Shown here: positions 4,922 through 21,279 of the stretch, one piece after another
How the letters are laid out: every line of letters starts with the position of its first letter
How positions within the stretch are numbered: position 1 is the stretch's first letter
The notes under the pieces: generated by a model
What the model was told of the DNA's origin: nothing
What the model saw: only the letters and a program-made list of their open reading frames with translations
The model's database searches: none
Position numbers and translations under genes: made by a program
Source of the DNA: a virus
DNA length: 24,595 nucleotides
Virus record (IMG/VR): IMGVR_UViG_3300008110_000389
Coordinates: 1 to 24,595 of that record
Direction: 5' to 3' (one strand)

Positions 4922-7576
4922 ATGTCTATACAAGTCACAGTTGTTAATGAAAACAACATTGCCGTTGAGGTAACCCCTACTGCCACGCAAACAATTAACA
5001 TTGATCGTGGTTTATATGGTCCTAGCGGTTTCTCTGGCTATTCTGGTGCATCTGGCTATTCTGGGTACTCAGGCATTAGCGGATTTTCAGGTAGCGGCAT
5101 TAGTGGTATCTCTGGTTATTCTGGAATAAGCGGTTTCTCAGGTTATAGCGGTATTGGTATAAGTGGCTATTCTGGTTCTGGAGTTTCTGGTTACTCTGGT
5201 TTTAGCGGAATTGGAACAAGTGGCTTTAGCGGGATTTCTGGCTACTCTGGTTTTAGCGGTTCTGGAATTTCTGGTTACTCTGGGATTGGCGTTTCTGGGT
5301 TTAGCGGTTTCTCTGGCTATTCGGGAATTGGCTCATCAGGCTTTAGCGGAATATCTGGCTATTCGGGAAGTGGCATAAGTGGATATTCAGGATTTTCTGG
5401 TAGCGGCATTTCTGGTTTTTCTGGATTCTCTGGTGCTAGTGGTCAGCAAGGTGTTTCTATTACTATCAAAGGTGAAGTTGCCACAGTTGCAAATTTGCCA
5501 ATGGTCGGCAACCAAGTCAATGACGCATACATTGTTGCGGATGATGGTAACTGGTGGATTTGGAACGGCACGGCTTGGTATGACGGGGGACAGATTGTTG
5601 GTCCACAGGGCGCAAGCGGTTACTCTGGTTACTCAGGCATTGGCACAAGTGGTTATAGCGGATACAGCGGTTTAGCAACTTCTGGTTACAGCGGGATTTC
5701 TGGTTACTCAGGAAGTGGCGTTAGCGGCTATTCAGGCTTTAGCGGTAGCGGTGTTTCTGGTTATTCTGGAAGCGGTATAAGCGGTTATTCGGGAAGCGGA
5801 ATCTCTGGGTATTCAGGCACAAGCGGTTATTCTGGAATTGGCACAAGTGGATTTTCTGGATATTCTGGAAGCGGTGTAAGCGGGTATTCTGGCTTTTCTG
5901 GTGTGTCTGGTTATTCTGGTTCTGGCGTATCTGGTTGGTCTGGATTTTCTGGCATATCTGGGTTTAGTGGTATCTCTGGCTACTCAGGCATATCTGGATA
6001 TTCTGGACAATCAGGCGCGGCTGGTTTGGGTGGAACAGTTGGGGCTTATGGTTCTTTCTATGACACAACAAACCAAACAACAACTGCCAATACGCCAACG
6101 GCTGTCACGCTAAACACAACGGCTGGCAACAATGGTGTAACCCTCATATCGGCAAGCCAATGGCAATTTACTAATGCTGGAACTTATAGCATTACCTATT
6201 CCATACAGTTCACAAACCACAGCACGGCTTTGGGGACTACGCAAGTTTGGTTAAAGAAAAATGGAATTAATGTTGTTGATAGTAATACACATTTTGATGT
6301 GCCAGACAAACAAGGTAGCGCATATTCATCTGAAGTTTTAACAGTTAACTATGTTTTAAATGTTTTAGCAAATGATGTGTTTCAACTTTTCTGGGACACA
6401 ACAAATGCAAATGTCTACCTTGAAACTCTTGCTGGCAATGCAACATATCCATTAACGCCTTCTGTAATCTTGACTGCTACGCAAGTAATGTATACCCAAA
6501 GCGGGTATAGCGGCACAAGCGGATTTAGTGGCATATCAGGTTTTAGCGGTCTGTCGGGATATTCAGGCGCATCAGGCTATTCTGGTTCAGGCATTAGTGG
6601 TTATAGCGGCTCTGGTATCTCAGGCTATTCTGGAAGCGGTTTGTCTGGTTACTCAGGCACATCTGGCTATTCAGGTTCAGGAATAAGCGGCTATTCAGGA
6701 AGTGGCATAAGCGGGTTCTCAGGCATTTCTGGATACTCAGGTTCAGGCATAAGTGGATTTTCAGGTAGCGGCATTAGTGGTTATTCTGGTATATCAGGAT
6801 ATTCTGGTTCTGGTATTAGCGGTTACTCAGGCACAGACGGCACATCAGGTTTTAGCGGAATTTCTGGCTACTCTGGTTCTGGTGTAAGTGGCTTTTCAGG
6901 CTTTAGTGGATTTAGTGGGATAAGCGGATTCTCAGGAATTTCTGGGTATAGCGGTTCTGGTGTATCTGGTTATTCAGGGTCGGGCATATCTGGATTCTCA
7001 GGCTTTAGTGGATTCTCAGGAATTTCTGGGTTCTCTTGCATGTCGGGTTATTCTGGTTCTGGCATTTCTGGCTTTTCTGGTTTTAGCGGTATCTCTGGAT
7101 ACTCAGGCAGAAGCGGTTATTCTGGTAGTGGCATAAGTGGATTTTCTGGAATTAGCGGATATAGTGGTTCTGGCATATCGGGTTACTCTGGTAGAAGCGG
7201 ATACTCTGGAAGCGGCACAAGCGGCTTTAGCGGATTCAGCGGAGTATCAGGTTATAGCGGTTCAAGCGCGGCAAGTATTTCTATAACCAATGACACAACA
7301 ACCGCAACAAATGTTTATCCAACTTTTGTAAATGCAACAAGTGGAACGGCAAGCACACTTTATACTGGCAATGCAAAACTTTTGTATAAGCCAAGCACGG
7401 GTGAATTGACTGCGCCAGTTCAAATATCAAGCAACGGCATTAACATTAACAATGCAACTATAAGCACAAGTTATACGATTGCTACGGGTAACAATGGATT
7501 GTCTGTTGGTCCTGTCACAGTTGCTTCTGGTCAATCTGTAACAGTATCTAGCGGTCAACGCTGGTTAGTTTTGTAA
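4922..7576 (+). CDS. Collagen-like fibre protein with embedded C1q-like domain
   Basis: An 884-residue fibre. Residues 1-32 form a short beta-like head. Three collagen-like blocks follow at about 33-175, 229-366 and 526-783, made of Gly-X-Ser triplets where X is mostly Tyr, Phe, Ile or Val, often with an extra Gly-Ser or Gly-Ile pair. Between blocks 1 and 2 is a small domain with WIWNGTAWYDGG. Between blocks 2 and 3 is a roughly 160-residue jelly-roll-like domain of C1q/BclA style (residues about 367-525). Residues 784-884 are a fibre tip common in phage tail fibres, ending in GQRWLVL. Proline is essentially confined to single GP triplets at the start of blocks 1 and 2. There is one Cys (706). 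Likely a trimeric receptor-binding or adhesive fibre. Confidence 0.75.
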   Translation: MSIQVTVVNENNIAVEVTPTATQTINIDRGLYGPSGFSGYSGASGYSGYSGISGFSGSGISGISGYSGISGFSGYSGIGISGYSGSGVSGYSGFSGIGTSGFSGISGYSGFSGSGISGYSGIGVSGFSGFSGYSGIGSSGFSGISGYSGSGISGYSGFSGSGISGFSGFSGASGQQGVSITIKGEVATVANLPMVGNQVNDAYIVADDGNWWIWNGTAWYDGGQIVGPQGASGYSGYSGIGTSGYSGYSGLATSGYSGISGYSGSGVSGYSGFSGSGVSGYSGSGISGYSGSGISGYSGTSGYSGIGTSGFSGYSGSGVSGYSGFSGVSGYSGSGVSGWSGFSGISGFSGISGYSGISGYSGQSGAAGLGGTVGAYGSFYDTTNQTTTANTPTAVTLNTTAGNNGVTLISASQWQFTNAGTYSITYSIQFTNHSTALGTTQVWLKKNGINVVDSNTHFDVPDKQGSAYSSEVLTVNYVLNVLANDVFQLFWDTTNANVYLETLAGNATYPLTPSVILTATQVMYTQSGYSGTSGFSGISGFSGLSGYSGASGYSGSGISGYSGSGISGYSGSGLSGYSGTSGYSGSGISGYSGSGISGFSGISGYSGSGISGFSGSGISGYSGISGYSGSGISGYSGTDGTSGFSGISGYSGSGVSGFSGFSGFSGISGFSGISGYSGSGVSGYSGSGISGFSGFSGFSGISGFSCMSGYSGSGISGFSGFSGISGYSGRSGYSGSGISGFSGISGYSGSGISGYSGRSGYSGSGTSGFSGFSGVSGYSGSSAASISITNDTTTATNVYPTFVNATSGTASTLYTGNAKLLYKPSTGELTAPVQISSNGININNATISTSYTIATGNNGLSVGPVTVASGQSVTVSSGQRWLVL
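5018..7267 (+). repeat. Coding GGN-NNN-TCN/AGY triplet repeats (three blocks)
   Basis: Degenerate 9-base units encode Gly-(Tyr/Phe/Ile/Val)-Ser, in three blocks at about 5018-5445, 5606-6020 and 6497-7267. Copies vary freely among synonymous Gly codons (GGT, GGC, GGA, GGG) and among TCN and AGY serine codons, so the protein pattern is far more regular than the DNA. The repeat is a protein-coding fibre shaft, not an array of separate elements. Confidence 0.9.
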
Positions 7577-18878: not shown

Positions 18879-19034
18879 ATGACTAAACAAGACTTAATCA
18901 AACTGGCTGGTTCACAGAACAAACTTGCACAACTCATTGGCGTTAGCCAAGCGGCAGTTTCGCAATGGAAAGAAGTGCCACAGTCAAGAATCTGGCAATT
19001 GAAATTACTGAAGCCTGAGTGGTTCGCAGTATAA
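18879..19034 (+). CDS. cro: Cro-like transcription regulator
   Basis: A 51-residue protein, MTKQDLIKLAGSQNKLAQLI followed by GVSQAAVSQWKEVPQSRIWQ and ending KPEWFAV. The helix-turn-helix is LAQLIGVSQAAVSQW (residues about 16-30), and the size and the ending after RIWQLKLLKPEWF are typical of Cro/YdaS-type repressors. It binds operator DNA as a dimer and would turn down the divergent early promoters. It is the first gene of the rightward early operon. Confidence 0.8.
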   Translation: MTKQDLIKLAGSQNKLAQLIGVSQAAVSQWKEVPQSRIWQLKLLKPEWFAV

Positions 19035-19133: not shown

Positions 19134-19856
19134 ATGCGAATCAAAAATTGGAATAAGTTTCAGCACTTCAAGGATAGAAAACCGCCTTGGGTAAAGTTAT
19201 ATCGTGATCTTTTAGATGATATTGAATGGCACGAATTAGACCCACAGGCATCAAAAGTTTTGGTAATGCTATGGCTAATTGCCAGCGAAGATGAAGGCAA
19301 CATTCCAGCCCTTAAACAACTGGCATTTAGATTAAGATTATCTGAAAAAGAAACAGAAGTTTGCATTATCAAACTGTCCCATTGGCTGGAACAAGATGAT
19401 ATCAATGCGATATCAACAAGATATCAAGATGATGCACCAGAGACAGAGACAGAGACAGAGACAGAGTTAGAGAAAGAGAAAGAGACAGAGTTATTCGTTG
19501 AAACCGATAAATCGGTTGTCAACCCCAAACGCATAAGTTGTCCAACAGAAGAATTATTAAATCTCTATCACCAAGAATGCAAAAGCCTACCAAGGGTTTT
19601 AATGCTGAACGACACAAGGAAAAAACATTTGGTAAGTCGCTGGCGGGATGTAGATGCTGAAGACAACTTACAGACCAAAGAAGAAGGCTTAACAATATTT
19701 AGGCAAATATTCCAGCAAGTGCATAAGTCTGATTTCCTGTCAGGCAGAACACAAAACCGCAATGGTCGGGTCTGGAAAGCCAGTTTTGATTGGTTAATGA
19801 TGCCTACCAATTTTCTGAAAGTGGTTGAAGGTCAATACGATAACGGGAGAAAATAA
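19134..19856 (+). CDS. O-like replication initiator
   Basis: A 240-residue protein. The N-terminal part (residues 1-87) starts MRIKNWNKFQHFKDRKPPWV and has a helical domain with KVLVMLWLIASEDEGNIPAL and LAFRLRLSEKETEV, as in phage O/DnaD-type winged-helix initiators. A hinge of repeated Glu-Thr/Glu-Lys pairs (about residues 103-118) follows, then a C-terminal domain with VWKASFDWLMMPTNFLKVVEG, a typical ending of this family. It probably binds the phased iterons within its own gene and loads the host or phage helicase. Ribosome site GGAG is 8 bases before the ATG. Its stop overlaps the next ATG by 1 base. Confidence 0.65.
   Translation: MRIKNWNKFQHFKDRKPPWVKLYRDLLDDIEWHELDPQASKVLVMLWLIASEDEGNIPALKQLAFRLRLSEKETEVCIIKLSHWLEQDDINAISTRYQDDAPETETETETELEKEKETELFVETDKSVVNPKRISCPTEELLNLYHQECKSLPRVLMLNDTRKKHLVSRWRDVDAEDNLQTKEEGLTIFRQIFQQVHKSDFLSGRTQNRNGRVWKASFDWLMMPTNFLKVVEGQYDNGRK
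19398..19427 (+). repeat. Candidate replication origin: three GATATCAA iterons
   Basis: GATATCAA occurs at 19398-19405, 19409-19416 and 19420-19427, exactly 11 bases apart, so all lie on the same helix face. As 11 is not a multiple of 3, each copy is read in a different codon frame, which shows selection on DNA rather than protein. They lie just before the hinge of the initiator gene, as the lambda origin does, and next to a simple repeat. Confidence 0.55.
19441..19488 (+). repeat. Hexanucleotide AGNNAG repeat (8 units)
   Basis: AGACAG x4, AGTTAG, AGAAAG x2, AGACAG are in tandem and in frame, coding for alternating Glu-Thr, Glu-Leu and Glu-Lys. The top strand is almost all purine. It forms the acidic hinge of the initiator and may be the easily melted or length-variable part of the origin. 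Confidence 0.8.
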
Positions 19857-20095
19857 TGTCATTCAAAGATAAATATTCCAGCAAAAAAGATGATTCTGAA
19901 TTTGACGAAGTGCAACGCCTTATGTGTTCTGTATCTGGATGCAGTAAGCGTTGGACAGTTCACATAAGCGGAGACAAGCCCAAGTGTTCAGAACACCAAT
20001 GGACTACTGAAAAGCCAGCGTTTAAGCGCGTGATAACAGAAGTGTTGCCCAAAGAAGTTGAAGTACCGCAATGGTGGAATAAGGATGCTTTTTAA
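19856..20095 (+). CDS. Small zinc-ribbon-like protein
   Basis: A 79-residue protein. Cys24 and Cys29 (MCSVSGCSKRW) and CSEHQW (Cys44, His47) give a C-x4-C...C-x2-H pattern that could bind one zinc. The N-terminus is charged and the C-terminus ends VPQWWNKDAF. It starts at the last base of the initiator gene stop (TAATG) and stops at the A of the next ATG, so it is coupled to both. Function unknown; the position next to the initiator suggests a replication accessory or helicase-loader role. Confidence 0.55.
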   Translation: MSFKDKYSSKKDDSEFDEVQRLMCSVSGCSKRWTVHISGDKPKCSEHQWTTEKPAFKRVITEVLPKEVEVPQWWNKDAF

Positions 20096-21279
20096 TGGAA
20101 ACACAAAACATTGAAAACTTTTATCAGGTAGAAATCTTTGATGATTTAGAAAATCCAATAGCAGATGATTGGATAAATATGCCTGAGTATAAAAATGTTA
20201 GCCAACCAGAACCAGAAATTACGGCAACATTTAAATTTAGAAACAAGACTGATTTTGAAACATTTAATGAATTATTAAAAAAATATGTTTATCACACAAA
20301 CAAAGTTTTTGATGGTGAACAAGAAATTACAAAAAAACAGGCATGGTATCCATTAAAAGAAAAAAGCAGTAAATACCATTATGTTTCTTCTAAACCAACA
20401 AACCCAAGATTTCCTGTTTACATTGTTAGCAAAGGTAGATTTATTAAAAATCCTACTAGCGCATCATTAAACAGAATGAAAGTGCCGTTTTATATGATTG
20501 TTGAACAACAAGAATATGAACAATATTGCGAATTGGTTGGCAAAGAAAAAGTTTTGATATTGCCAGAAAAATACAAAATAGAATATGATGTTTTTTGGAA
20601 AGATGAAGATACAAGAACTGGTGCTGGACCAGCAAGAAACTTTGCATGGCAACATTCAATGGAAAATGGATTTGAATGGCATTGGGTAATGGATGACAAC
20701 ATAGAAAGTTTTGAACGATTTAACAACAATATGAAAATTAGTTGTGCAGATGGCACATATTTTTATGCCTGTGAAGATTTTGTTTTGCGTTATTCAAACA
20801 TTGCCATTGCTGGTTTAAATTATTCAAACTTTTATCCAGCCAATGAATCTAGACCGCCTTTTATACTTAATACAAGGATTTATAGTTGTTTATTGATTAG
20901 AAATAACATTCCATATCGTTGGCGTGGTAGATACAACGAAGATACAGATTTATCCTTAAGAGCATTAAAAGATGGTTTATGCACAGTTCAATTTAATGCA
21001 TTTCTTCAAGGGAAAATGTCTACGCAAAAAATCAAAGGTGGAAACACTAAAGAATTTTATGAAAACGAAGGCACTTTAAACAAATCAAAAATGTTAGAAG
21101 ATATGCACCCAGATGTTGCAAAAGTTGTATGGAAATTTAATCGTTGGCATCATCATGTAAATTACAAACCATTCAAAAAAAATAGATTGAAAAAAATAAC
21201 AAATTACGAAAACGAAAAGAAAATAAACAATTACGGAATGGAAATATATGAACAAGATACAAGCCCGTGCAATCCTTGA
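20095..21279 (+). CDS. TET-associated-type (TAGT) glycosyltransferase
   Basis: A 394-residue protein. Residues 40-95 are a small module with ATFKFRNKTDFETFNELL and QAWYPLKEK, seen in phage DNA-modification proteins. Residues about 108-330 look like the TAGT/GREB1-type glycosyltransferase: FPVYIVSKGRF (nucleotide-sugar strand), a helix, PFYMIVEQQE, then GAGPARNFAWQHS and WHWVMDDNIESF with the Asp-Asp metal site at 200-201, and a C-terminal RGRYNEDTDLSLRAL. Known members add sugars to modified cytosine in phage DNA. No TET dioxygenase or base-modifying partner is visible here. AT-rich with a Lys-rich tail. The gene overlaps the next frame by 32 bases. Confidence 0.65.
   Translation: METQNIENFYQVEIFDDLENPIADDWINMPEYKNVSQPEPEITATFKFRNKTDFETFNELLKKYVYHTNKVFDGEQEITKKQAWYPLKEKSSKYHYVSSKPTNPRFPVYIVSKGRFIKNPTSASLNRMKVPFYMIVEQQEYEQYCELVGKEKVLILPEKYKIEYDVFWKDEDTRTGAGPARNFAWQHSMENGFEWHWVMDDNIESFERFNNNMKISCADGTYFYACEDFVLRYSNIAIAGLNYSNFYPANESRPPFILNTRIYSCLLIRNNIPYRWRGRYNEDTDLSLRALKDGLCTVQFNAFLQGKMSTQKIKGGNTKEFYENEGTLNKSKMLEDMHPDVAKVVWKFNRWHHHVNYKPFKKNRLKKITNYENEKKINNYGMEIYEQDTSPCNP

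Follow-up and report, generated by a model that had tools for sequence, protein, structure and literature searches.

A short DNA word, GATATCAA, is repeated at 11-bp steps inside a gene for an O-like replication initiator in the viral DNA analysed here (24,595 nucleotides, the window), and this locus raises the question of what holds such a repeat in place within a protein-coding sequence. An earlier note on this DNA had read the repeat as the iterons of a probable replication origin. This reading is supported by the phased conservation of the array, by its coupling to the N-terminal domain of the initiator and by its relocation outside the initiator ORF in some loci, and a probability of about 85% is given here to the array being the initiator-binding iterons of an intragenic replication origin, bound by the protein's own N-terminal winged-helix-like domain.

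Initiator gene and its surroundings

The initiator gene (19134..19856, + strand) encodes 240 amino acids and was assigned with PHROG profiles and an AlphaFold2 model. The protein matches PHROGs of replication initiation, O-like and DnaD-like helicase-loading proteins, with a best E-value of 7e-27 and a match to the DnaD-like profile at 2e-26. The label O-like, used in the earlier note, holds at the level of the PHROG family and mainly for the C-terminal part, which is chiefly where PHROG 345 "replication initiation O-like" (E 1e-22) and PHROG 9773 (E 6e-4) match, while the N-terminal part matches only other "replication protein" and DnaD-like profiles. In the AlphaFold2 model a folded, helical N-terminal winged-helix-like domain (residues 1-88) is joined by a disordered linker (residues 88-131, pLDDT below 50) to a folded C-terminal domain (residues 132-240), which is read as helicase-loader/DnaD-like from the PHROG profiles. 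The array and the tract that follows it encode the disordered stretch. Pfam and NCBIfam have no family for the initiator; Pfam gave only a sub-threshold unrelated match and no RepA_N. The PDB fold search with the initiator returned nothing at E below 0.001 and only weak, non-significant MarR/ArsR-like winged-helix resemblances to the N-terminal domain, the PDB sequence search with the initiator alignment gave no credible match, and the Rfam search of the window gave none.

A Cro-like repressor gene (18879..19034, + strand; Pfam P22_Cro, E 9e-13) lies upstream of the initiator gene in the same rightward operon, which also carries NinB and an HNH nuclease, and the leftward operon upstream encodes ERF and an exonuclease; the gene layout is lambdoid. 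Two genes past the initiator, positions 20095-21279 encode a TET-associated glycosyltransferase (TAGT, PF20691, E 2.7e-43), and from this match the phage may glycosylate modified DNA bases. Positions 4922-7576, among structural genes, encode an 884-residue protein with long collagen-like GYSGxSG repeats, which is probably a tail fibre.

Probable iteron array in the window

The three exact copies of GATATCAA reported inside the O-like gene are found at 19398-19405, 19409-19416 and 19420-19427, with no further copy in the 24.6-kb window. The array begins at codon 89 (codons 89-100), about 265 bp into the gene, and its position, given before as just before the hinge, is better described as within the linker, ahead of a purine-rich tract. 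The core of each copy is the palindrome GATATC, which fills slot 1 (19398..19403), slot 2 (19409..19414) and slot 3 (19420..19425), all on the + strand, and is confined to these three sites in the window. With a step of 11 bp, each copy falls in a codon frame of its own, as had been claimed, and the three are read as GAT ATC (Asp-Ile), xxG ATA TCA (Ile-Ser) and xGA TAT CAA (Tyr-Gln).

One more 11-bp step 3' of slot 3 there is a fourth slot, absent from the earlier note, which is a half-site GAT (19431..19433, + strand) with a conserved T before it; GAT is 97-100% conserved and the next three bases 40-57%. Slots 3 and 4 form the dyad ATCA-nnn-TGAT. Since slot 4 is only a half-site and completes this last dyad, the protein may recognise the dyad that spans the spacer (ATCA-nnn-TGAT) and not the palindrome itself. 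Slot 4 is a full iteron, GCTATC, in the sister class of genes described below.

At least three copies of GATATCAA occur anywhere in the window in 4 of 100 shuffles, so the copy number alone is unremarkable and the phasing is the remarkable part. With the protein sequence and the codon usage of the phage taken as given, the particular codons that make up the array have a probability of about 3e-4.

Conservation of the array in relatives

Relatives of the window initiator were collected from IMG/VR (153 confirmed, 80 of them retrieved), and GATATC slots were counted in 70 distinct genes that have the window-type N-terminal domain. All three 11-bp slots are within one mismatch of GATATC in 65 of the 70, and the mean number of mismatches to the three slots is 0.81 at a step of 11, against 7.2-8.5 at steps of 9, 10, 12 and 13. 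The check proposed in the earlier note, retention of the 11-bp phasing in relatives despite coding change, therefore came out in favour of the array. Chance, with a short AT-rich word recurring three times in a phage that is itself AT-rich, would be compatible with the 4% of shuffled windows that contain at least three; the exact phase in these 65 relatives and the constraint on codons described next refute this explanation, which is left with a negligible probability.

Per-base conservation was taken from 40 relatives with identities below 92%. In this set most bases of the hexamers are at 97-100%: slot 1 ranges from 85% (one base) to 100%, slot 2 is at 97-100%, and the lowest value of all, 72%, is found at the first base of slot 3, which is G or A in relatives. 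Bases of the 5-bp spacers are mostly 38-78% conserved, except for an invariant A directly after slot 2 and after slot 3 and for the ends of the last spacer, and the amino acids that the spacers encode also vary among relatives. Third codon bases are conserved at 0.963 in the array and tract versus 0.61 elsewhere, a value reached in none of 100000 permutations. Codon column 97 encodes Val, Ala, Thr or Leu, yet its third base is G in 40/40, and columns 101 and 107 have variable residues with a third base A in 40/40. Third bases are thus fixed while residues vary, so the amino-acid sequence does not explain the repeats, and the earlier statement to this effect is borne out at the level of single codons.

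These data bear on the explanation that the site is conserved by its linker peptide, or as a recombination hinge for exchange of the C-terminal domain, the repeats having no binding role. The linker peptide is indeed similar across many relatives, and the C-terminal domains diverge right past the tract. However, third bases are invariant at codons where the amino acid varies, and homology for recombination would not focus conservation on the hexamers and leave the spacers variable.

A second hexamer type and its coupling to the N-terminal domain

Three relatives, L017, L019 and L020, have a C-terminal half nearly as in the window and lack a GATATC array. Their array site reads GATAGC or GCTAGC, then n5 GCTAGC n5 GCAAGC n5 GCTATC, and then CCAGAG, the tract start common to both iteron types. 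They represent a sister class of N-terminal domains, about 50% identical, whose hexamer is GCTAGC in equal register and with the same 11-bp step. A search with this N-terminal domain found 341 relatives, and a GCTAGC-type array of matching step and register is common to the 80 that were retrieved. The linker peptide of the sister class differs while the 11-bp layout is unchanged, which speaks again against conservation through the peptide.

In 163 of 166 genes the iteron class is the one that goes with the N-terminal class, and the three exceptions have GCTAGC arrays in degenerate form, so that hexamer type and N-terminal domain are coupled in the sequences compared. Each of the two large C-terminal clusters pairs with both N-terminal/iteron classes, a sharing that would also be expected of a hinge for C-terminal exchange. 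The L017 protein, whose gene has the GCTAGC array, shares 98% identity with the window protein in its last 108 residues, the C-terminal part, and 50% in the N-terminal part. L017 is read from this as a natural domain swap, in which the array goes with the N-terminal domain and is independent of the C-terminal domain.

Direct homologues with array and tract alike are present in named phages and are annotated merely as replication or hypothetical proteins: Xanthomonas phage PBR31 and Limnohabitans phage DC33 belong to the GATATC class, Iodobacter phage PhiPLPE and Cylindrospermopsis phage Cr-LKS3 to the GCTAGC class, and all have the tract. No origin or iteron feature is annotated in the examined stretches of these four records. 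DC33 (L429, PQ492659.1) is filed under Inoviridae, probably by a taxonomy error in the record, which is a 39-kb genome with a lambdoid-type initiator.

Two other loci are of separate interest. In L188, a MAG of the PVC group, GCTAGC repeats about 290-350 bases into a gene starting near 264 have a step of 12 bp and not 11 (GCTAGCAAGGATGCTAGCAACCCTGCTAGC), still followed by the GAGACA tract, which makes this locus a test case for the strictness of phasing. L353 (335-1153) has a glutamine amidotransferase (GATase) in frame with the initiator array and C-terminal part, a fusion that may come from a chimeric contig.

Upstream array of the GCTAGC class

Many genes of the GCTAGC class (L313, L314, L332, L338 and others) have a further array, GCTTGC n5 GCTAGC n5 GCTAGC, at codons ~36-46. 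It falls in the part of the gene that encodes the DNA-binding domain, in most cases 170-185 bp 5' of the linker array (~173 bp). The codons used in it for Arg, Leu, Ala and Ser hardly vary; Arg, for instance, is CGC in 21/21 and Ser is AGC in 24/24. Genes of the GATATC class show no such codon constraint at codons ~36-46. The presence of two arrays suggests an origin in two parts, perhaps looped, for the GCTAGC class.

Arrays outside the initiator ORF

In five loci of bacterial genomes (L180-L184; Noviherbaspirillum, Janthinobacterium and Massilia), prophages of a Massilia type, the N-terminal domain has an ORF to itself, about 100 residues long. Just 3' of this ORF there are GCTAGC-type arrays with the 11-bp step, around and in the start of a different ORF that we take to be helicase-like from its motif LRPYQ..AV, and purine-rich GAAGAG runs follow the arrays in other frames. 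Here the array is retained under a different protein text, and so it persists outside the initiator ORF. Coding constraint and a recombination hinge were rejected on this evidence together with the third-base invariance, the focus of conservation on the hexamers and the identical layout in the sister class; we regard either as very improbable.

The reverse test was made by scanning IMG/VR with the DNA patterns alone, without any protein. Among the matches listed for the GATATC array, 95 of 119 viral loci have the window-type N-terminal domain adjoining or spanning the array, and among those listed for the GCTAGC array an initiator N-terminal domain is so placed in 74 of 80 loci. The exceptions among the listed GATATC matches include 11-bp arrays that precede a ribbon-helix-helix gene (L197 and relatives) or an HTH_36 gene (L251), and one that lies inside a DUF6291 gene (L242). 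GATATC arrays can therefore stand beside unrelated genes, so the motif is not exclusive to the initiator family and alone is no proof of an origin. The DUF6291 case (L242, 1200-1270) has five GATATC at 11-bp steps and then a purine-rich stretch within the gene, which does not match the profile of the initiator N-terminal domain; it may be an origin of this design that is served by an unrelated initiator.

In L197 (6828), L222 (6145), L256, L286 (1173) and L299 the pattern GATATC n5 GATATC n5 AATATC immediately precedes a ribbon-helix-helix-like gene (RHH_1, E 0.003) and looks like an operator rather than an origin. Similar 11-bp arrays upstream of such unrelated, regulator-like genes raise the possibility that the window array is an internal operator, through which the initiator or another phage regulator would control transcription of its own operon and not the start of replication, and the evidence for recognition of the array by the N-terminal domain suits an operator equally well. 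Nevertheless, the array is some 265 bp into the gene, where the domain linker is encoded, the purine tract comes after it in both classes, and no GATATC is found upstream of the operon in the window. The protein is moreover a replication initiator by family, and the origins of lambda O and pSK41 Rep are found at this place (PMC7466680, PMC5703833). An operator is for these reasons considered unlikely, and intragenic iterons bound by the initiator remain the preferred reading.

Purine tract, duplex stability and skew

Directly after the array there is a purine-rich (GAGACA)n tract (19438..19490, + strand; TRF period 6, 8.8 copies), which encodes an ETETET linker and was missing from the earlier note. 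It is found in both iteron classes, and its first 40 nt are 86-91% purine. Over 150 relatives, Glu codons in the tract are GAG 841 times and GAA 17 times, versus 637 and 1433 elsewhere, and Thr in the tract is ACA in 496/496. The tract is the best candidate for an unwinding or loading element. Replication slippage may contribute to it, partly instead of selection, but the tract occurs in both classes and purine runs are retained in other frames in L180-L184. The duplex-stability profile has no lambda-like AT-rich element adjoining the array and no clear minimum downstream; by calculation the duplex is just slightly less stable at the array and on its upstream side.

GC skew, which the earlier note had proposed as a check, gave no support. 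In two complete circular relatives the cumulative-skew extremes are 3-11 kb off the array (DC33, array at 10.6 kb and extremes at 7.4 and 19.1 kb; ctEw122, array at 9.5 kb and extremes at 17.1 and 38.3 kb). The third complete relative, PhiPLPE, has a near match that coincides with a switch of gene strand, where gene order is a confounder; skew was therefore left out of the argument, and the local skew minimum of the window near 18.5-19 kb is likewise confounded, as it coincides with divergent operons.

Proposed mechanism and comparison with known systems

In the proposed mechanism the N-terminal winged-helix-like domain would bind the three GATATC palindromes and the GAT half-site, which are 11 bp apart and thus all turned to the same side of the double helix. 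Once bound, the protein would build an array ending at the (GAGACA)n tract, where the strands would probably be opened, and the C-terminal domain would then recruit or load the replicative helicase, so that replication would start at the array.

Replication specificity determinants were reportedly studied in O by Furth and Yates in 1978 with lambda/phi80/82 hybrids. The gene order of the window resembles that of lambda (PR-cro-...-O) in having the initiator gene downstream of a cro-like gene. In lambda, the middle of the O gene holds an AT-rich region and four iterons, each an imperfect inverted repeat of 19 bp (PMC7466680). The window shares with lambda O/ori-lambda and its Stx-phage variants an N-terminal DNA-binding domain, a flexible linker and a C-terminal partner-binding domain, and also an origin, here a probable one, in the middle of the initiator gene, with four repeated sites between the domains and then a special tract (PMC7466680, PMC6022878). 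Unlike the lambda repeats, its sites are 6-bp palindromes with an 11-bp period, so the difference from 18-19 base lambda iterons pointed out previously is real. The flanking tract is purine-rich GAGACA instead of AT-rich, the N-terminal domain has no Pfam match, and no P gene was recognised beside the initiator in the window.

The pSK41 Rep protein has a winged-helix N-terminal domain that binds four Rep boxes central in rep, its origin-encoded linker is dispensable and both of its domains are structurally DnaD-like; in pPR9 the N-terminal domain and the origin were replaced jointly, with a C-terminal domain over 97% identical (PMC5703833). The same kind of modular swap, of N-terminal domain and array, is seen here in L017. 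In contrast to the staphylococcal RepA_N plasmid initiator pSK41 Rep, the present family is found in phages and prophages mainly of Proteobacteria, has no RepA_N Pfam match, and has hexamer palindromes at an 11-bp step and a purine tract. The window system would work like lambda O and pSK41 Rep, yet it has neither the iteron length and AT-rich element of the former nor the RepA_N domain of the latter. GATATC/GCTAGC iterons or an 11-bp phased phage origin were not described in the literature searched, a negative that is no proof of novelty, since subscription journals were mostly outside its coverage.

Significance

We consider it rather probable that these genes represent a large origin class in phages and prophages of Alpha-, Beta-, Gamma- and Deltaproteobacteria, in which helix-phased short palindromic iterons lie in the initiator gene and at least two specificities (GATATC and GCTAGC) are exchanged with the N-terminal domain, the GCTAGC origin being perhaps a two-array looped complex written under the protein code. 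To our knowledge, origins are unknown for most environmental phages. The hexamers, the 11-bp phase and the purine tract would mark the origin from sequence in phages and prophages that number in the hundreds and are uncultured, and the DNA-binding domain can be predicted from the hexamer class. Domain swaps that arose in nature are a ready specificity pair (GATATC and GCTAGC) for studying DNA recognition by initiators, and the system is useful for the study of a second, overlapping code within a coding sequence.
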